From NCBI GenBank assembly GCA_002747105.1, contig PDSY01000017.1, positions 1 through 64,000 on the forward strand: 64,000 bases of DNA, read 5' to 3'. The notes under the pieces were generated by a model, which was not told the origin of the DNA, made no database searches, and worked only from the letters and a program-made list of their open reading frames with translations. Position 1 is the first letter of the stretch, and the number at the start of each line of letters is the position of its first letter. Of the stretch, positions 24,013-51,150 are shown piece after piece. The stretch is from Flavobacteriales bacterium (GTDB lineage: Bacteria > Bacteroidota > Bacteroidia > Flavobacteriales > Weeksellaceae). Both the position numbers and the translations under genes were made by a program.

Positions 24013-24183
24013 TATTCTAGTAATCAGTCATCTAGTAATCAGTTATCTAGTAGTCAGTTTACCAAGATTCAATTACCTAGATAACTAAAATACTATAATA
24101 CTGATTTACTGACCTACTAACTACTAGACTACTGACTACTAAATTACTAGACTACTGGACTACTAAGTTACTGACCACTAAAA
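24013..24183 (+). repeat. Intercistronic inverted word-repeat element, locus C
   Basis: 15-nt units TTCTAGTAATCAGTC/ATCTAGTAATCAGTT/ATCTAGTAGTCAGTT (24015-24059), then reverse-complement words ACTACTAGACTACTGACTACTAAATTACTAGACTACTGG. Confidence 0.8.
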
Positions 24184-27840: not shown

Positions 27841-29061
27841 TTAATTTTTCCTTGTCTTTTTTAATTCTTCCTTGTCTTTTTCAGTAGGGTTCCAAACTTT
27901 AATTTCAGAATTTTTATTGATACCAGAAAGTATCTGGACATTGATACCGTCACTACCGCCTAATTTCACATAAACTTTTTTAAATGAACCATTGGCCTGC
28001 TTTACTTCTACAAAAGGCTTGTCTTTTCCGTCTGCATCTTTTTCATACTGTATGAGACTTTCGTTTACCACCAAAGCATTTTTCTGTGATTTTAAAACAA
28101 TTTCAGCATTTGCTGAAAACCCCGCACGGATATACTCGTCAGTTGGGTTAAAAACATTGCCTTCAATCGGAAATTTGATGGTTCCTGCATCATCCTTACC
28201 TTTCGGAGCAATCATTGTAACACGCCCTGGGAAACTTTTATTCTGAAGAGCACCAATAATAATGTTCATGTCCATTCCTGTAGTGAGTTTTCCAACTTGT
28301 GCCTCATCAATCGTACCCTGAAATATCAATGCATTAAGGTCTGCTACGGTACAAATCGTGGTTCCAGAGTTAAATGAGTTAGCCTCAATAACCTGGTCCC
28401 CTGGCTTTACTGGCAATTCCAAAACGGTTCCATTGGCTTTGGACCTAATTTGTGTGGTAGCCAATCTTCTCAATCCTGGCGTAATCCCCGTGCGTGCGAT
28501 CTGTAGATTTCTTTGTGCTGTAATACGCTGCTGGTTCGCATTTTTAAGTTGTTGCTGAACAGAAGCCAACTGTTGCTGAGCGTTAATAAATTCCTGTTTA
28601 GAAATCACGCCTTGATTGTAGAGACGCTGCTGCATCGCAAATTGTTTTTGTTGGTTGCTCACATTCACTTTCGCATTGGCTATTTGCAGATTGGCGTTTT
28701 CCACTTCTTGCTGTGCCGCATTAACCTGAGCAATATTGGGTACAATGTGGATAGTCGCAATAAGCTCTCCCTGAGACACATAGTCGCCTTCATCTACTAA
28801 AACTTTCTCAATAATACCAGAAAGGTTAGGCTTGATTTCAATTTCTTCTCTGGGAACAATTTTTCCTGTAGCCATCACTTTATCATTCAAATCCTGAGTG
28901 ATTGGCTTTTTAGTTAGAAATTCTTGATTTTCAGAGGAATTAGATTTTACAAGATAGTTAATCCCCGCAACTAGACCTATCAAAAGGACGAGGCCTAAGA
29001 AAATATAAAGTGCTTTTTTGAATGTAAATTTCTTTTTCATAGCTATTTGTTTTTGAATCAA
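27841..29061 (-). CDS. Efflux periplasmic adaptor (HlyD/MacA-like)
   Basis: EIEIKPNLSGIIEKVLVDEGDYVSQGELIATI; QQL coiled-coil; operonic with ABC genes; likely start at the internal MKKKFTFKK. Confidence 0.9.
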   Translation of the reverse strand: MIQKQIAMKKKFTFKKALYIFLGLVLLIGLVAGINYLVKSNSSENQEFLTKKPITQDLNDKVMATGKIVPREEIEIKPNLSGIIEKVLVDEGDYVSQGELIATIHIVPNIAQVNAAQQEVENANLQIANAKVNVSNQQKQFAMQQRLYNQGVISKQEFINAQQQLASVQQQLKNANQQRITAQRNLQIARTGITPGLRRLATTQIRSKANGTVLELPVKPGDQVIEANSFNSGTTICTVADLNALIFQGTIDEAQVGKLTTGMDMNIIIGALQNKSFPGRVTMIAPKGKDDAGTIKFPIEGNVFNPTDEYIRAGFSANAEIVLKSQKNALVVNESLIQYEKDADGKDKPFVEVKQANGSFKKVYVKLGGSDGINVQILSGINKNSEIKVWNPTEKDKEELKKTRKN

Positions 29062-29067
29062 TATTAA

Positions 29068-30336
29068 TTATTCGCTTCGGAGAGCATCAATGGGTTTTAT
29101 ACTTACGGCACGCTGAGCTGGAATCATTCCAATGATTAAGCCAAGTATGACCATAATCACCAAAGCCCCAAAAACATTGGAATAATCAACACTCGGATTA
29201 TAAAATGGAAAATCATCTTGGTTGCGCGTCAACATATCTAAAATCATCAACAAAAGAACCCCCATAATAAAACCCAATAAGCCTGATGTTAAGGTGATTA
29301 CTACGCTCTCTAAGAGGATCTGGTTGCGTACTTCTGAAGGTTTAGCACCAATGGCTCTGCGTATGCCGATTTCTTTGGTTCTTTCGGTTACAGTAATCAG
29401 CAAAATATTAGAAATAGCAATTACACCAGCTAAAATGGTGAGGATGCCTACGGCAATGGTTAAAAATTGAATCCCCATAAGAAATCCTGTTAGTTTTTTA
29501 AATTCTTTCCCTAAATTAAAACAGCCAAAAGCATTGGTATCATCTGGAGAGACGCGGTATTCATCTTTAAGAAAATCCTTTGCTTTGTTTTCTACATTTT
29601 CAAGATTCGCATTGGGCTTGCTGACTATGGCAAAAAAATCGACCACATCACTAGTGTGATATATTTTGGTAAAAGTGGTAAACGGAATGTAAGCCGTTTC
29701 ATTATTGCTCATACCTCCTTGTTTTCTGACTGAGAAAACGCCGATAACGTTAAAGAAAACTCCTTTCAGGTTAATAGATTTCCCGATAGGGTTTTCATTA
29801 TTCTTTTCGTCGAAAAGGTTTTTATAAATATCTTCTCCAATGACGATAACGTTTTTGCCTTCAGCAATGTCGGCATCGTTAATATATCTGCCTAAACTAA
29901 GCTTTTTCTCAGAAATTTTATTGCCGATAGGGAAATCTCCAGTGAGAGAATAAGTGCCTTTTTTGCCATTTCTAACCATGGTTTCTCCTGGCGTACCAAA
30001 ATTACCCCGAGCACTTTGTGGCGAAATAAATTCGATTTCTGGAATTCTACTTTTTAGTTTTTCAATATCATCCAAATGAAGTTCCATCTTCCGACCTTTC
30101 GGGAAACCATCAAACGGAATGGTACTTTGTTGTGCCCAAAGAAAAATAGAATTGGTCGCAAAGCCTTTAAACACTTTGTTAAAACCATTTTCCAGTCCTT
30201 TTGCGGCACCCAGCAAGGAGACATAGAGAAACATTCCCCAGCCAACACCAATCATGGTGAGGAAGGTTCGGAGTTTGTTGTTCCGAAGCGAATGGTAAAT
30301 TTCCTGCCAAGTATCTCTTTTAAAAATTAAATTCAT
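29068..30336 (-). CDS. ABC transporter permease (MacB/FtsX-like)
   Basis: NNKLRTFLTMIGVGWGMFLYVSLLGAAKGLENGF...TERTKEIGIRRAIGAKPSEV. Confidence 0.92.
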   Translation of the reverse strand: MNLIFKRDTWQEIYHSLRNNKLRTFLTMIGVGWGMFLYVSLLGAAKGLENGFNKVFKGFATNSIFLWAQQSTIPFDGFPKGRKMELHLDDIEKLKSRIPEIEFISPQSARGNFGTPGETMVRNGKKGTYSLTGDFPIGNKISEKKLSLGRYINDADIAEGKNVIVIGEDIYKNLFDEKNNENPIGKSINLKGVFFNVIGVFSVRKQGGMSNNETAYIPFTTFTKIYHTSDVVDFFAIVSKPNANLENVENKAKDFLKDEYRVSPDDTNAFGCFNLGKEFKKLTGFLMGIQFLTIAVGILTILAGVIAISNILLITVTERTKEIGIRRAIGAKPSEVRNQILLESVVITLTSGLLGFIMGVLLLMILDMLTRNQDDFPFYNPSVDYSNVFGALVIMVILGLIIGMIPAQRAVSIKPIDALRSE

Positions 30337-30343
30337 GCCTTTA

Positions 30344-31573
30344 TTATTCTGTTGTTAAAGCTTCAACTGGTTTTATTTTACTAGCCTTGTAAGCTGGTAC
30401 GAAGCCTGCCAATGTACCAGAAAACACTAGGCAAAAAAATGCTACGATGATAAGTTCCCAACCAACAGAAGGATTAATGATAAAATATTTTTCTAAATTA
30501 TCGTCAATTAATTTTAATGTTAAAACACCCAATCCAATGCCCACAAAGCCAGAAACTACGGTAATGACAATACTCTCCTGTAGGATTAACCCTACAATGG
30601 ATTTTGGTTTCGCACCAATAGCTTTGCGTACGCCGATTTCTTTAGTGCGTTCTTTTACGATGTACACCATAATATTACTGATACCTATAATACCTGCCAT
30701 TAAGGTCCCAAGACCTACAACGCCCACGATAAGTGTAAGCACAAACACAAACTGAAATTGTTCTTTTTTGTTGGAAGCATCATTCCATACACGAATACCA
30801 TTTTCATCATCGGGCGAAACAGATTTTTCTTTTTTAAGCTGGTCTTTGATTTCGTCACCGAGTTCAATGGCTTGTACTGGCGAAAGTTGATTATCGTAGA
30901 CAATGGTAATGCTATTAAGTGTATCAGAATTTTTTTTAAGCTGCTGAAGCACATTAAGGGGCACCGAAATCATGCGCTCATCACGATCGCCACCAGCATC
31001 AGAGAAAACGCCAATAATTCGGAACATTATACCATTCATCTCGATATATTTTCCGACGGCTGTTCCATTTTTAATTAAATCTCGCTGAACCATTCTACCA
31101 ATGACTGCCACTTTTTGATGATTTTGAAAATCCAAAGGCGAGAGATATCTACCGTCAATCAATTTTCGATCTTCAATAAACTGTTCATCTGGATTAGCAC
31201 CCATCACTTGATAGTTTCCGCTCTCACGACCATATTTTATCATAACGTCCATCCCTGTTCTTCCTGTGGAATACTCTATTTTATCCTTATAATTTTTATT
31301 AATATTTGTAAAATCTTTGTTTTGAAGAATAATCTTTCTGTCACTTTGCATTCCGTTATACATTTCGGTAGTTCTTCCAGTGAAGATTCTAATCAAATTA
31401 GAGGCATCGCCGTTAAAAGATTGAGAGAAAGCATTTTGAAGTCCTTTACCAATACCAAAAAGAACAATGAAAATGTACAACCCAAGCGCCACAGTAAAGC
31501 CTGACAAAACCGTCCGAAGAACATTGCTTCGGATAGAGCTGTATATCTCCTGCCAACGGTCTAAATCAAACAT
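30344..31573 (-). CDS. ABC transporter permease (MacB/FtsX-like), second copy
   Basis: SNVLRTVLSGFTVALGLYIFIVLFGIGKGLQNAF...KERTKEIGVRKAIGAKPKSI. Confidence 0.92.
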   Translation of the reverse strand: MFDLDRWQEIYSSIRSNVLRTVLSGFTVALGLYIFIVLFGIGKGLQNAFSQSFNGDASNLIRIFTGRTTEMYNGMQSDRKIILQNKDFTNINKNYKDKIEYSTGRTGMDVMIKYGRESGNYQVMGANPDEQFIEDRKLIDGRYLSPLDFQNHQKVAVIGRMVQRDLIKNGTAVGKYIEMNGIMFRIIGVFSDAGGDRDERMISVPLNVLQQLKKNSDTLNSITIVYDNQLSPVQAIELGDEIKDQLKKEKSVSPDDENGIRVWNDASNKKEQFQFVFVLTLIVGVVGLGTLMAGIIGISNIMVYIVKERTKEIGVRKAIGAKPKSIVGLILQESIVITVVSGFVGIGLGVLTLKLIDDNLEKYFIINPSVGWELIIVAFFCLVFSGTLAGFVPAYKASKIKPVEALTTE

Positions 31574-32266
31574 TTAATCTAATATTTTTTGAGTTATAAC
31601 TTCGTCACTTTCAATTAAACCATCCTTTAGGTGAATGTTGCGTTTAGTTTGTGCCGCAACATCAGGTTCGTGTGTTACGACGATTATCGTTTTTCCACTA
31701 TTGTTAATCTCCTGAAGGAGCTTCATTATCTCATAAGTCGTTGTACTGTCTAGTGCACCAGTTGGTTCATCCGCCAAAACAATTTTCGGATCTGTGATTA
31801 ATGCTCTTGCAATGGCTACACGTTGTTTTTCGCCCCCCGAAAGCTCATTTGGTAAATGGTTGGCACGATCTGCGAGTCCTACTTTTCCTAAATATTCTAA
31901 AGCTTTTGAATTCCTTTCTTTTCTAGAAACATTTTGATAATAGAGCGGCAATGCGACATTTTCCAATGCAGATTTGTAATTGATAAGGTTAAAAGACTGA
32001 AACACAAAACCCAAAAAACGGCTACGATATTCTGCGGCTTTAACTTCGCTAAGGTGTTCAATGGGTATTCCGTCTAATTTATAGGTACCGCTGTCTTTCT
32101 CATCCAAAATTCCAATAATATTAAGCAAGGTAGATTTCCCTGAACCAGAACTCCCCATAATAGAGACAAATTCTCCTTCAGAAATTTCTAGATTGATTCC
32201 CTTGAGCACATGCAGTTTACTTTTGCCTGTATCGTAAGATTTATGAATATTTTTAATCTCGAGCAT
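31574..32266 (-). CDS. ABC transporter ATP-binding protein (MacB/LolD-like)
   Basis: GSSGSGKSTLLNIIG, LSGGEKQRVAIARALITDPKIVLADEPTGALDS. Confidence 0.95.
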   Translation of the reverse strand: MLEIKNIHKSYDTGKSKLHVLKGINLEISEGEFVSIMGSSGSGKSTLLNIIGILDEKDSGTYKLDGIPIEHLSEVKAAEYRSRFLGFVFQSFNLINYKSALENVALPLYYQNVSRKERNSKALEYLGKVGLADRANHLPNELSGGEKQRVAIARALITDPKIVLADEPTGALDSTTTYEIMKLLQEINNSGKTIIVVTHEPDVAAQTKRNIHLKDGLIESDEVITQKILD

Positions 32267-32914: not shown

Positions 32915-34194
32915 ATGAAAAAACAGGCTGTTTTATTTTTCGGAATCCTTTTTTTGAACCTTCAGGCTCAAAAGAAATGGACGTTGCAAGAAGCTATAAA
33001 TTATGCTACACAACACAATTTGCAGGTCATACAGAATACTTACCGTAATCAGATTCAGGATAAAAATCTGGAAGTTGCTAAAAGGGAAAAATTGCCTTCT
33101 GTCTCTGGATTAGTAGGAAATACCTTAAATTTTGGTCAGGGTCAAGATGTTTTTGGAAATATTAAGAGGAACGACAATTTTAACAACAATGCCAATATAA
33201 ACCTAAACATTATGGTTTACAATAATGGCAGAATAATATTTCGTTACAAATAGCCCAACAGTATTTGTCTACATTGCTTAGTAAAGAGATTTTAAAAATC
33301 AACCAGAGCGCTTATGAAAATGCTAAAAAGATGTATGATAGAGCAAAAATCACCACCGAAGTTGGAACTACTCCGAGAACAGTTTTAGCAGAAGCAAAAG
33401 CCACACTGGCGCGCAAAAACCAAAATGTTAAAAATGCTCAAGTTAATATCAATAGAAACCTTTTCCAGCTGGCACAATTACTTCAACTTTCAGATTATAA
33501 AGAATTTGACATTCAAGATGTTTCTGTTGAGAATATTTTAGTTTCTAAATATTTATCTTCTGACAATACCTTGGAAAAAGCTTATGAATCTCAACCGCAG
33601 TTAAAAGCCGCAGAAGCGAGAATTAAATCTGCGGAAGCGCAGACTGAAGTGGTTAAAACGGCTTTTTATCCAACAATAACAGTTTCTTTGGGTGTGGGAA
33701 CCTTTTATTTCAATTCTTTGGTTACCGATATGGTAGGAGTTGATATCAATGGATTACCGATAAAAGAGAGTAGCTTTTTGAAACAATACAAAAATAATTT
33801 TGGACAGCAAATTGGAATTAATGCTAACATTCCAATATTTAACAAAGGGATTACAAAAATTCAAGTTGAGCAAGCGAAAATCAATGAAGAAATTGCCAAG
33901 GTGAACTTAGAGCAAGCAAAAATGGAGATTAAGCAAAGCGTTCAGAAAGCCCAATTTGATGCAGAGGCCAATTATCAAAACTATTTGGTGGCAAAGCAAG
34001 CCGAAATAAGCACAAAACTTGCTTTAAATTATGCGCAAAAAAGTTTTGAGGCTGGCCGAACTACCATTTATGACCTTACCATTGCTCGTAATAATTATGC
34101 GAATGCACAAGGTAGTTTAGCCCAAGCTAAATATAATTATCTTTTTAGTTTAAAGATCATTGATTTCTATTTGGGAAATCCGTTGGCATTATAG
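32915..34194 (+). pseudogene. tolC: TolC-family outer membrane efflux protein, frame-disrupted
   Basis: ORF 32915-33253 (MKKQAVLFFG..KWTLQEAINYATQHNLQVIQ..VYNNGR) and ORF 33265-34194; frame 2 reads NNISLQIAQQYLSTLLSKEIL upstream of the second ATG, so the frames join near 33230. Confidence 0.8.
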
Positions 34195-34403
34195 CCTCTT
34201 GACACCTCCGTGACACTCTTTTTTCTGCATAGAGGAGTATTTATCCCTTCCTTTTAAACTCCATTTTTTCGATGTAAACTCATAACACAAATTGAATGTT
34301 ATCACCTCTTTTTCTGGTCTACTGATTAAGGCACTAGACTAGAATATTTTTAATTTGATACAAAAATCGTGAAAATTGACAATTGCTGGAATGTGGATGA
34401 ATT

Positions 34404-34640
34404 TTGGAAAAAGTTATCCCTATTTCAATAATAACTTCCATAATTCTTTCTCCACTTCTACTGTTGTTTTTCTCCATATCCACTCAGATTCTTTTAGGTA
34501 GGTTTCACGCCATTAAACTTCGTTTTGTAAAGCCCCAAAAACTTTCTATCCTATTAATATATGAAAATTCAAAAGAAAGAGAGAAAGCACTTCGATGGGT
34601 TCAATATCAAATTCAAGAGCAAAATAAGAGGTCGCTGTAA
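34404..34640 (+). CDS. Hypothetical protein
   Basis: 78-aa ORF only; stop codon lies inside a terminator-like hairpin. Confidence 0.25.
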   Translation: MEKVIPISIITSIILSPLLLLFFSISTQILLGRFHAIKLRFVKPQKLSILLIYENSKEREKALRWVQYQIQEQNKRSL

Positions 34641-34652
34641 TGGCGACCTCTT
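34626..34652 (+). terminator. Perfect hairpin terminator
   Basis: AAGAGGTCGC tgtaatg GCGACCTCTT then GGTTTTC. Confidence 0.75.
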
Positions 34653-34701
34653 GGTTTTCATGGTTATCTTTATCTCACATTGTGTTGTTTTGAAATAGAA
34701 T

Positions 34702-34769
34702 TTTAGAAGTGAATATCAAATTATAAAAATATTGCAATTCTCCTTTTTTTACTTCCTGTACCATCTTTA
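34702..34769 (-). pseudogene. Truncated copy of the 3' end of the phosphate-porin gene
   Basis: TTTAGAAGTGAATATCAAATTATAAAAATATTGCAATTCTCCTTTTTTTACTTCCTGTACCATCTTTA closely matches 39199-39267. Confidence 0.85.
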
Positions 34770-34874
34770 TTATTAGAGAAGGCGTACCACTAAGTGTGCG
34801 GGAGATTGAAGTGTAATCACCTTATGAAACTCACCTCGTCCTTTATTTTAAAATGGTCATAAAAGTAAAAAATA

Positions 34875-35537
34875 TTATTTTTTCACTTGATGTCTTACCA
34901 CTTCTGCATCTACGTAGAAGATAATATCTTCTGCGATATTTTTTATTAAATCGCCTACTCTTTCTAATTTTTTAATAATAGAAAACATCGTTAAACAATC
35001 TTTGATAGACTTCGCATCCTTCTTGATTAACTCTTCTATTTGAAGAAAAACTTTATCATTAATTTTATTGACTTTTTTATCTTTTTTAAAAACTTTTCTG
35101 GCAATTTTTAAATTTTTATCCTCATAAGAGTCAATAACATTATCAAACATATCTTCAATAATGCCATACATTTCATGATAAGAAAGTTTTTTCAAAATAT
35201 CCTTTGATATCCCTTTTTCATTTTGAGCAACATATTGAGCGATTGCATAAGCATGATCACCTATACGCTCTAATTCTGAATTGATATTTCTTACTGCGGT
35301 AATAAACCTCAAATCTACTGCAACAGGGTTATAAAGTGCCAAAAATTGCTCACAATCTTTATCAATTTTTAAATTCAAACTATTGACATAGTTTTCTGTA
35401 TGCATTACCTCTTCTGCTAAATCTAAATCGTGTGTAGTGAGTGCAGTGTGCGCTTTTGATAATTGTTTCTGACATCTTGACAACATGGTTTTGCAGACAT
35501 CATTGATTTCTTTTCTGTATCTTTCTTTATTTGTCAT
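34875..35537 (-). CDS. phoU: Phosphate transport regulator PhoU-like
   Basis: Adjacent to pstB; AVDLRFITAVRNINSELERIGDHAYAIAQY, KKLERVGDLIKNIAEDIIFY. Confidence 0.92.
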   Translation of the reverse strand: MTNKERYRKEINDVCKTMLSRCQKQLSKAHTALTTHDLDLAEEVMHTENYVNSLNLKIDKDCEQFLALYNPVAVDLRFITAVRNINSELERIGDHAYAIAQYVAQNEKGISKDILKKLSYHEMYGIIEDMFDNVIDSYEDKNLKIARKVFKKDKKVNKINDKVFLQIEELIKKDAKSIKDCLTMFSIIKKLERVGDLIKNIAEDIIFYVDAEVVRHQVKK

Positions 35538-35546
35538 AGCTTTATC

Positions 35547-36356
35547 TTAACCAAAACGACCTGTAATGTAGTTTTCGGTTCTCTTTTTTTGTGGGTTGGT
35601 AAATATTTCTCTCGTTTTATCACATTCTATTAATTCTCCCATATAGAAAAAAGCGGTATAATCACTTATTCTACTGGCTTGTTGCATATTATGGGTAACG
35701 ATAATAATGGTATATTTATCTTTTAATGAATGGATAAGTTCCTCTATTTTCGCTGTTGAAATAGGGTCTAATGCAGAAGTAGGCTCATCCATTAAAATAA
35801 TAGAAGGCTCTACTGCCAAAGTTCTCGCAATACAAAGTCGCTGCTGCTGACCTCCAGAAAGTGCCAAAGCAGATTTTTTTAAATCATCTTTCACTTCTTC
35901 CCATAAATCGGCTTGTTTTAAGGATTTTTCTACACGCTCGGCGATGAATTTTTTATCTTTAACGCCTTGGATTTTTAACCCATAGGCTACATTTTCAAAG
36001 ATAGATTTTGGAAAAGGATTGGGCTTTTGAAAAACCATTCCTATTTCTTTTCTTAAGTCTTCTACCTGAACGGATTTAGCATAGATATTGTTCCCATTTA
36101 CTTTTATTTTCCCTTCCATTCTAAACGAATCTACGTAATCATTCATACGATTAAACAACCGTAGAAAAGTAGATTTCCCACATCCCGAAGGACCTATAAA
36201 TGCGGTTACCGAATTGGGTTTTATCTTCATATCAATTCCTTTAATTGCCATGAAATCCCCATACCAAACCTTTACGCCTTTTACCTGTATTTTTGCTCCT
36301 TTTTCAGAAGTTTCTTCGGTAGATTTTTTATCTTTTATTTCCATTTGTTTTGCCAT
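35547..36356 (-). CDS. pstB: Phosphate ABC transporter ATP-binding protein
   Basis: [55 protein letters not shown]. Confidence 0.97.
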
Positions 36357-37189
36357 TTGTTTCTAAAATAAACGGCGATACCGTTCATTATAAATGTAAT
36401 TCCTAATAATATAATAATCGCTGCTGCTGCATTTTCTATAAACCCGTGTTGAGGTCTTGATATCCAATTAAATATCTGAATCGGTAAGATAGAAAATTCA
36501 GCCAAAATTCCATCTGGTGCAAAAGGCACATATGCCAATGCTCCTACCACAATTAATGGTGCCGTCTCTCCCACTGCTCGAGAAAGTGCTAAAATCACTC
36601 CCGTTAAAATACCACCACTTGCAGAAGGTAATACTTGATTCCAAATCGTCTGCCACTTAGAGGCTCCTAATCCATAAGACGCTTCTCTTATGCTATGCGG
36701 AACGGATTTTATCGCTTCTCTTGTAGCTACAATTACAATGGGTAATATCAATAATGCTAAAGTACAACTTCCTGCCAATACACTATGCCCCATATTACTA
36801 ACCCTTACAAATACTTCTAATCCTAAAAGTCCATAAATTACAGAAGGTACTCCTGCTAAATTCGAAATATTGACCTCTAATAATCCTGCTAATTTATTTT
36901 TACTGGCATATTCTTCCAAATAAACTGCTGCGGCTACTCCAACAGGAACAGCGATTAAGGTCGTTAATCCCAAAATCCAAACACTCCCCATCAAAGCAGT
37001 ATAGATTCCTGATTTTTCTGGTTTACGAGAGGGCAAATTAATAATAAAATCCCAATCGATTCTCATTACTCCATCAATCAATATATTACCAATAAATAGG
37101 ACTAATAATACTAAACCGATTAAGGTACAGGCAATTCCCCAAACCTTAAACATCTTGTCGTACAATCTATTTTTTTGTAAATTATTCAT
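36335..37189 (-). CDS. pstA: Phosphate ABC transporter permease
   Basis: Position between pstB and pst[44 protein letters not shown]. Confidence 0.95.
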
Positions 37190-38069
37190 ATCTTGATTGG
37201 AATTTTTTTCTAATTCTATAACTGATTGTATTCAATAAAAAGGTAAATAAAAACAGTGTAATACCCGCTGCATAAATGGTTCTATATTCCACAGAACCAT
37301 GCTGAACATCTCCCAAACTTACCTGAACAATATAAGCCGTAATGGTTTCAATAGGAACCGTTGGGTCTAAAGTTAATCTCGGTTGTTGACCTGCCGCTAC
37401 GGCCACAATCATGGTTTCTCCAATGGCTCTTGAAATTGCTAATATCACCGATACGATAATCCCCGATGATGCAGCTGGAACAGCTACTTTAAAAGCGGTT
37501 TGCAATTTTGTTGCTCCCATCCCAAAAGAAGCTTCTCTTAGTTTGTTAGGCACAGCGTGTAAAGCATCTTCACTAATAGAAGATACATACGGAATAATCA
37601 TAATTCCCATTACAATACCTGCGGATAAAGAGTTAAAACTGGATAAATCTGGAATATATTGTTGTAAAAATGGAGTTACCACGACCAATGCAAAAAAACC
37701 ATACACCACAGTAGGCACCGCTGCCAATAACTCTAATAATGGTTTGATGGTTTTTCTAAATTTACTCGGTGCATATTCACTCAAATAAATACTAATGGAG
37801 AGCCCAATAGGCAATGCTACAGCAATCGCAATGATTGATGTAAGAAATGTACCTGCCAATAAAGGCAATATTCCAAAATGCTGATACGCTTTATCTTTTG
37901 CCAAAGGCATCCATTCGGTATCGGTAATAAAGTCTATAATAGAAACTTCTTTAAAGAAATTAAAAGCCTCAATAGACAAAACAGCGATAATACCAATGGT
38001 TACTGCAATGGTAATCAATGCACTCAGCAATAAAGATTTTTCTATAAATAATTCTTTAATCTTTCGCAT
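37182..38069 (-). CDS. pstC: Phosphate ABC transporter permease
   Basis: SFGMGATKLQTAFKVAVPAASSGIIVSVILAISRAIGETMIVAVAAG. Confidence 0.95.
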   Translation of the reverse strand: MRKIKELFIEKSLLLSALITIAVTIGIIAVLSIEAFNFFKEVSIIDFITDTEWMPLAKDKAYQHFGILPLLAGTFLTSIIAIAVALPIGLSISIYLSEYAPSKFRKTIKPLLELLAAVPTVVYGFFALVVVTPFLQQYIPDLSSFNSLSAGIVMGIMIIPYVSSISEDALHAVPNKLREASFGMGATKLQTAFKVAVPAASSGIIVSVILAISRAIGETMIVAVAAGQQPRLTLDPTVPIETITAYIVQVSLGDVQHGSVEYRTIYAAGITLFLFTFLLNTISYRIRKKFQSRYE

Positions 38070-38090
38070 TTTGTATTCTTATATAAAAAC

Positions 38091-38125
38091 AACTAAATCA
38101 GATGTATTTATATCTGATTTAGTTG
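38091..38125 (-). terminator. Intra-operon hairpin between pstS and pstC
   Basis: AACTAAATCAGAT ... ATCTGATTTAGTT, 13-bp stem. Confidence 0.7.
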
Positions 38126-38137
38126 ATAATAAAATGA

Positions 38138-39073
38138 TTATTTATTTGCTTCAACAAAGGCTTTAAACTTGTCGGCTTGTTTTTTGTATTCTGCTTCCGG
38201 TAAAGGAACATAACCTACATCTTTTGCGATACTTCCTGCATTATCCACATAGAAATTCACAAATTCTACCACTTCTGGAGACTTTAATGAAGTACTATTC
38301 ACATAGATAAATAAAGGTCTAGACAATGGTTTATAAGTTCCATTACTTACCGTTTCTTGTGTTGGCTTCACTACTTCTGTTCCGTTGTGTACCCCTACTA
38401 ATTTTAATTTATCTTTGTTCTCAGCATAGTAAGCCAATCCAAAAAATCCTAAAGCAAACTTATCTCCAGAGATTCCTTTTACTAATACATGATCATCTTC
38501 ACTTGCGTTATAATCCATACGAGTACCTACTTTTTTACCACAAATCGCTTCTGCGAAATAATCGTAAGTTCCTGATGCTGTTCCTGGACCATATAATTTA
38601 ATTTCTTCATTTGGCCACTCTGGACGAATCTGATTCCATTTTTTAACTTTTCCTTGTGCAGCTGGTTCCCAAATTTTCTTCAATTCTTCAGGAGTAAAGC
38701 TATCCACCCAATCATTTTCTGGGTTAATCAATACAGCTAAACCATCATACGCTACTTCAAGCTCTACATAGTTGATATTATTCTCTTTACAAGCATCCAT
38801 CTCTTTTTGCTTAATAGGACGAGAAGCATTAGAGATATTGGTTTCCCCTCTTGAGAATTTTTTAAATCCTCCACCTGTTCCAGAAACTCCAATGGTAACA
38901 TTTACTTTTGGTTGCTCTGTTCTAAATTCCTCTGCGATAGCCTCTGTTACAGGAAATACTGTACTCGAACCATCTACTTGAATATTACCTTGCAGACCAT
39001 CTGCTTTTTTTTCTCCACCACCACAAGACATCATTAATAATCCTGTTGCTATTGTCAATGCTAATTTTTTCAT
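38138..39073 (-). CDS. pstS: Phosphate ABC transporter substrate-binding lipoprotein
   Basis: [45 protein letters not shown]. Confidence 0.96.
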
Positions 39074-39199
39074 TGTTTTATTTTTTTAAAATTTTTAATT
39101 GTTCAATATTATAATAATCTATCTTGCTATACAAAATTTTTATTCAAAATAATATTAATATAATATTCAGTTAACATTTAGTTAACATACTTTGTTTGT

Positions 39200-40384
39200 T
39201 TAGAAGTGAATATCAAATTGTAAACGATACTGTAATTCTCCTTTTTTACTTCCTGTAACATCTTTATAACCAATATCCGATTGTACTTTTAATTTGTGTC
39301 CTACGATATATTTTGAAACACCAAGCGTATAATAATTGGTATTAAAATCATCTTTATCAAACTTCACATTGGTATATCTTCCTGCTACTTCCCAATTGTT
39401 CTTAAACAAATATCCTGCTTGTAAATTGGTAGAGTTACCTGTTTTTACTTTCGCCGAAGAATTATCTGTAATATTTCTTTTAGCATATTCTCCCATTGCA
39501 GAGAAACCTTGATATTTGAACATTCCATCTACGAAAATAGTTTCTACATCGGCTCTATCAAAACCTCCTTCTACGTTCGGGTTCTCCATATAGCTTCCTT
39601 GGCTTCCCTTATTCTTCACGGCATTGTCGTTAAAGTTATACGTTGCCCCTAAAGATAATTTTGGTTTTTCTTCTCTCTTTAAATCACTCGCTGAATAATC
39701 TCCTTTACTTTTAAAATTCCCGAATGGCAATAATTCTACTCTTGCGGTATATTGGTGTCCTCCAATGTTTCCTGCAGTAATATTTCTACCTTCTCCTTGC
39801 GAAAGTGCAAACGCCTCACGCACCACAAAGTTTTCGGTTAAATTAAAATGGTGTCTCAACTGAAACCCTAAATCACGGTCGATATTAAAGTTTTTATTCA
39901 ACATCGAACGGTCAACAAATTGTAAATTTCCTGAAGAAATTACACGCTCTCTGTTCCCTGGCAATTTAGTTTGCCCCGCCCAAAGAGTAAAGTTTTTATA
40001 AAAATTCCACTTCAATACAGCGTCTAAAATATACCTTGGTGCGTTATTGGTGTATTGATTAGCTCCACCGATGTCCTTATTAGAAAGTCCTAACTCGATT
40101 TTATATTTCAATTTAGGTGTTAGAGCATGACCATCAAACTTCAATCTTGCTCTTCTTATCAACATAGAAGTCTCTCCTCTTTGATAATCTCCATTACCAT
40201 CAATTGCCCAGTCTGCAATAGATAAAAATTGCATTCTTGTTCCTACTTTCATCGACCAAGATTTGTTTTTTCCCTCTAAATTTAAAAGTCCTTTTCCAAA
40301 TTTAGGTGCTGGTGTTTTTTGTGCTTTCAATCCTACTCCTGCGCAGAAAGCTGTTGCTAATAAAACTTTTGTTACTTTTTTCAT
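39200..40384 (-). CDS. Phosphate-selective porin (OprO/OprP family)
   Basis: SWSMKVGTRMQFLSIADW..RRARLKFDGHALTPKLKYKIELGLS; adjacent to pst operon. Confidence 0.88.
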   Translation of the reverse strand: MKKVTKVLLATAFCAGVGLKAQKTPAPKFGKGLLNLEGKNKSWSMKVGTRMQFLSIADWAIDGNGDYQRGETSMLIRRARLKFDGHALTPKLKYKIELGLSNKDIGGANQYTNNAPRYILDAVLKWNFYKNFTLWAGQTKLPGNRERVISSGNLQFVDRSMLNKNFNIDRDLGFQLRHHFNLTENFVVREAFALSQGEGRNITAGNIGGHQYTARVELLPFGNFKSKGDYSASDLKREEKPKLSLGATYNFNDNAVKNKGSQGSYMENPNVEGGFDRADVETIFVDGMFKYQGFSAMGEYAKRNITDNSSAKVKTGNSTNLQAGYLFKNNWEVAGRYTNVKFDKDDFNTNYYTLGVSKYIVGHKLKVQSDIGYKDVTGSKKGELQYRLQFDIHF

Positions 40385-50911: not shown

Positions 50912-50924
50912 AGATTGGGTATTA

Positions 50925-51150
50925 TAGTTTGCCAGTAGTCTAGTAATCTAGTAGTCAGTGATAAAATTCATAGTTCACCAGTAGCCTAGCAACCTTGTAA
51001 TCAGTGATAAAATTCATAGTTCACCAGTAGCCTAGTAACCTTGTAATCAGTAATAAAATCCATAGTCTACCAGCAACCCAGTAGTCTAGTAATCAGTAAC
51101 AAACAATTACTAAATCACTAGACTACTAGATTACTAAATAACTATATTAC
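50925..51150 (-). repeat. Intercistronic inverted word-repeat element, locus F, with 46-bp tandem units
   Basis: Three contiguous 46-nt units at 50957-51002, 51003-51048, 51049-51094 (AGTGATAAAATTCATAGTTCACCAGTAGCCTAGYAACCTTGTAATC, third diverged), then reverse-complement words CACTAGACTACTAGATTACTAAA. Confidence 0.88.

Follow-up and report, generated by a model that had tools for sequence, protein, structure and literature searches.

How the end of a porin gene has come to stand a second time, on the far side of the neighbouring pst operon, is the question raised by this locus in a Flavobacteriales bacterium of the Weeksellaceae. The window, that is, the whole stretch of DNA analyzed, comprises 64,000 nt (GCA_002747105.1, contig PDSY01000017.1, positions 1–64,000 of the forward strand) and belongs to a partial genome of 1.2 Mb in 27 contigs, 57% complete. 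Its open reading frames place porin, pstS, pstC, pstA, pstB, and phoU in that order and in one direction, with the second porin tail beyond phoU (Table 1). The most probable explanation, to which we give a probability of about 0.8, is a partial duplication, local and with the resident porin as its source, that was non-functional and then decayed.

Table 1. Features of the porin–pst region, in window coordinates.
Feature	Position	Strand	Description or evidence
Decayed copy of porin 3′ end	34702..34770	-	About 22 last codons, stop codon, and 1 base; two frameshifts, no ORF
Source copy, the 3′ end of the intact porin gene	39199..39267	-	Alignment, window self-BLAST, own-assembly search
Intact Porin_O_P-type porin, 394 aa	39200..40384	-	Pfam PF07396, E = 1.5e-12; relatives 45–68% identical
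pstS-pstC-pstA-pstB-phoU operon, between both copies	34875..39073	-	ORFs; PstS, PstB, and PhoU named; gene order shared with relatives
Decayed 3′ end of IS1595-family transposase gene	34429..34558	-	Broken frames; DNA- and protein-level match via G003:C77
Terminator-like hairpin	34625..34653	.	Downstream of phoU and the porin-tail copy; consensus scan of both strands

Local alignment of 34702–34770 with 39199–39267, on the same strand, gives 63 identical columns of 70 (90%). The copy departs from its source by five substitutions and two compensating one-base indels, namely an additional T (a run of 7T versus 6T) and the loss of a base. The initial annotation had described this near match, its orientation, and the difference in the T run for 34702–34769, and it is borne out here with the copy extended to 34770. 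Identity to the source gene is well above chance, the pair scoring 101, compared with at most 37 for 200 shuffled queries run against the 64 kb and 32 for the runner-up elsewhere in the window. The pair is also the top match when the window is compared with itself by BLAST (E = 1.5e-17), and a search of the 1.2 Mb, 57% complete assembly returned only these two places, the second at E = 1.6e-18. The longest exact run common to both copies is 21 nt. Similarity ends one base past the stop codon at one side and at 34770 at the other; outside the 69 bases, the flanks of the copy show no clear similarity to those of the source (downstream P = 0.55, upstream P = 0.08).

The duplicated stretch consists of the last ~22 codons of the porin (KDVTGSKKGELQYRLQFDIHF), the stop codon, and one further base. 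The source gene matches the Porin_O_P profile (PF07396) with 48 bits, against a curated cut-off of 20.9, and is the one porin of this type in its own 57% complete assembly. The codons of the copy read KDGTGSKK-frameshift-GELQY-frameshift-FDIHF, and no reading frame is left. Porin searches found 18 from named genomes (45–68% identical) and 38 from the same family (27–44%), and none of those compared is as close to the copy as the resident porin. The two share the KD[V/G]TGSKKGELQY codons, unlike every other porin found. The KDVTGSKKGELQ stretch is likewise common to both and differs in all porins whose C-terminal end was comparable; the copy therefore derives from the resident gene or from an allele very near to it. 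The copy disrupts the YRLQFDIHF or RLQFDIHF end that porins conserve, from which we infer that the copy is the derived one and that the direction was from porin to spacer. With its boundaries at one base beyond the stop codon and at 34770, the copy is a truncated and dead pseudogene fragment of the porin 3′ end.

Twenty pst regions were retrieved; G247 and G298 among them show the porin-pstSCAB-phoU order, as does a third genome (L019) that came from the porin search. These three relatives are distant and lie outside the genus, and none has a porin tail within 2.5 kb past phoU (scores 19–23 versus shuffle maxima of 27–35). Nor do they carry a full-length porin at the junction corresponding to 34.7 kb, an arrangement that the initial annotation had named as evidence against a local duplication. 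The single porin, the occurrence in only two places, the lineage-private tail, and the three relatives without the fragment together make a local partial duplication most likely. A close PstS was found in one other genome of about 120 sampled from the family (60% identical), and several other families of the order carry a PstS of this kind. The porin-pstSCAB-phoU unit (34875–40384) is patchy in the family, a distribution that transfer or repeated loss could underlie.

A short piece of DNA that included the end of the porin gene was probably carried over to the other side of pstSCAB-phoU, whether as part of a larger tandem duplication that deletion later trimmed or as a templated patch of short length in break repair, and has since decayed through point mutation and two frameshifts. 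The locus had been proposed as a relic of tandem duplication or recombination. A truncated duplicate of the resident porin 3′ end is supported, and tandem duplication is only one among several conceivable routes, given that the repeat terminates at the stop codon and no duplicated porin-pstS spacer accompanies it. Comparison of the flanks stayed at chance level: neither porin-pstS spacer nor pst sequence recurs beside the copy, and a classical tandem duplication of pst would run on into them. A large tandem duplication has thus left no trace outside the 69 bases, and the tidy end at the stop codon likewise counts against the local-duplication reading. Since neither flank clearly resembles the source flanks, a large tandem duplication would have to be followed by a deletion beginning practically at the stop codon; for a templated insertion of short length, a single event suffices. 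The decayed IS1595 transposase tail in the same spacer fits a region of repeated insertion and deletion.

The alternative that survives best, and that we still consider unlikely, is a former complete second porin gene (a tandem paralogue) downstream of phoU, all but the tail of which was deleted. Such a remnant would agree with the sense orientation of the fragment, its purely coding content, and its end at the stop codon; more than one porin of this kind occurs in some genomes (L027), and in G219 a porin lies 3.9 kb past phoU, though on the opposite strand. The 90% identity to the resident porin, where porins vary among themselves, argues against a second gene. So does the 104-base interval from the fragment to phoU, which holds no convincing porin-like sequence (its best piece is an AT-rich match of 17 columns, P about 0.01). 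In addition, no second porin is present in this partial genome, and in relatives sharing the operon no porin occupies this place in sense orientation.

Integrative elements typically leave gene 3′ ends duplicated in direct orientation, and the copy could on this general ground be the scar of an element that targeted the porin 3′ end and left its duplicate behind. The two copies, as the initial annotation held, bracket phoU-pstBACS, and only that: the DNA between the direct repeats is a conserved pst operon in conserved order rather than an element, with no mobile element or integrase. The two frameshifts and 7% divergence also speak against an attachment-site scar, as does the result that neither the spacer searched against plasmids nor the 21-nt core searched against viral contigs gave a match, and we regard this origin as very improbable. 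An artefact of assembly, conceivable in a draft genome that is 57% complete and in 27 contigs, is scarcely credible for copies that differ by 5 bases and 2 indels, lie in unrelated flanks, and share no exact run beyond 21 nt, which is less than a typical assembler misjoin would need.

The spacer that holds the porin-tail copy is 680 nt long (34195–34874). The transposase relic within it was detected through a 67% DNA match to G003:C77, the ORFs of which match DDE_Tnp_IS1595 (Pfam) and NF033547 (NCBIfam); its IS1595 homology is established through this homologue, the relic alone falling below Pfam significance. To the left of the copy, the relic is followed by a broken efflux gene with an ABC exporter and then by ordinary housekeeping genes. 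The proposal that the copy marks one edge of an accessory region accordingly has only loose support. The outer-membrane efflux (OEP) gene beyond the spacer is present as two ORFs (32915–33253 and 33265–34194), with a frameshift and an apparent small internal loss near 33243–33265, and is probably a pseudogene or the product of a sequencing error; the adjoining ABC exporter (27841–32266) looks intact. The spacer region is one of decay. Elsewhere in the window, 50924–51103 holds another direct repeat of 88 nt, nearly head to tail and with 78% identity, short parts of which, or of the sequence beside it, also match 24131–24172.

The porin-tail copy shows no sign of function. If transcribed, it would form only part of the 3′ untranslated RNA of the operon, ahead of the terminator-like hairpin. 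The fold of 34600–34875 has z = −3.5, and an Rfam search of the spacer returned nothing significant. An AT-rich stretch just after phoU (34846–34874) is partly complementary to the copy, and the 3′ untranslated RNA could pair there; the fold showed part of the copy matching about 34850–34873 in inverted orientation, probably by chance (P about 0.02, low complexity). It is hardly to be entertained that the copy is kept as an RNA or recombination element coupling the expression or copy number of porin and pst. Recombination at ~21 bases of identity is of low efficiency. Because the longest identical run has that length, removal or amplification of pst between the copies would be only rare, and the repeat appears too short and too diverged for a recombination hot spot, which is unlikely here. 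The earlier suggestion of a live substrate for deleting or amplifying pst is not upheld, given so short an exact run, the divergence of the copies, and no sign of rearrangement. The junction past phoU is a decayed insertion/deletion site, and the value of the observation lies mainly in annotation: it documents that DNA was rearranged locally where this pst operon, of patchy occurrence in the family, has its downstream edge.

Literature searches returned nothing specific. A Porin_O_P gene (PF07396) next to pstSCAB-phoU is known in Flavobacteriales, and the source gene and operon order are as in G247, G298, and L019; unlike in those genomes, an extra porin tail past phoU is found only here. The pseudogene fragments left in bacterial intergenic regions by truncated gene duplication are likewise short, partial, frameshifted, near their source, and in the same orientation. 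Nothing notable sets the present copy apart from them, save that it happens to sit across the pst operon, and the finding is an ordinary trace of earlier DNA rearrangement.
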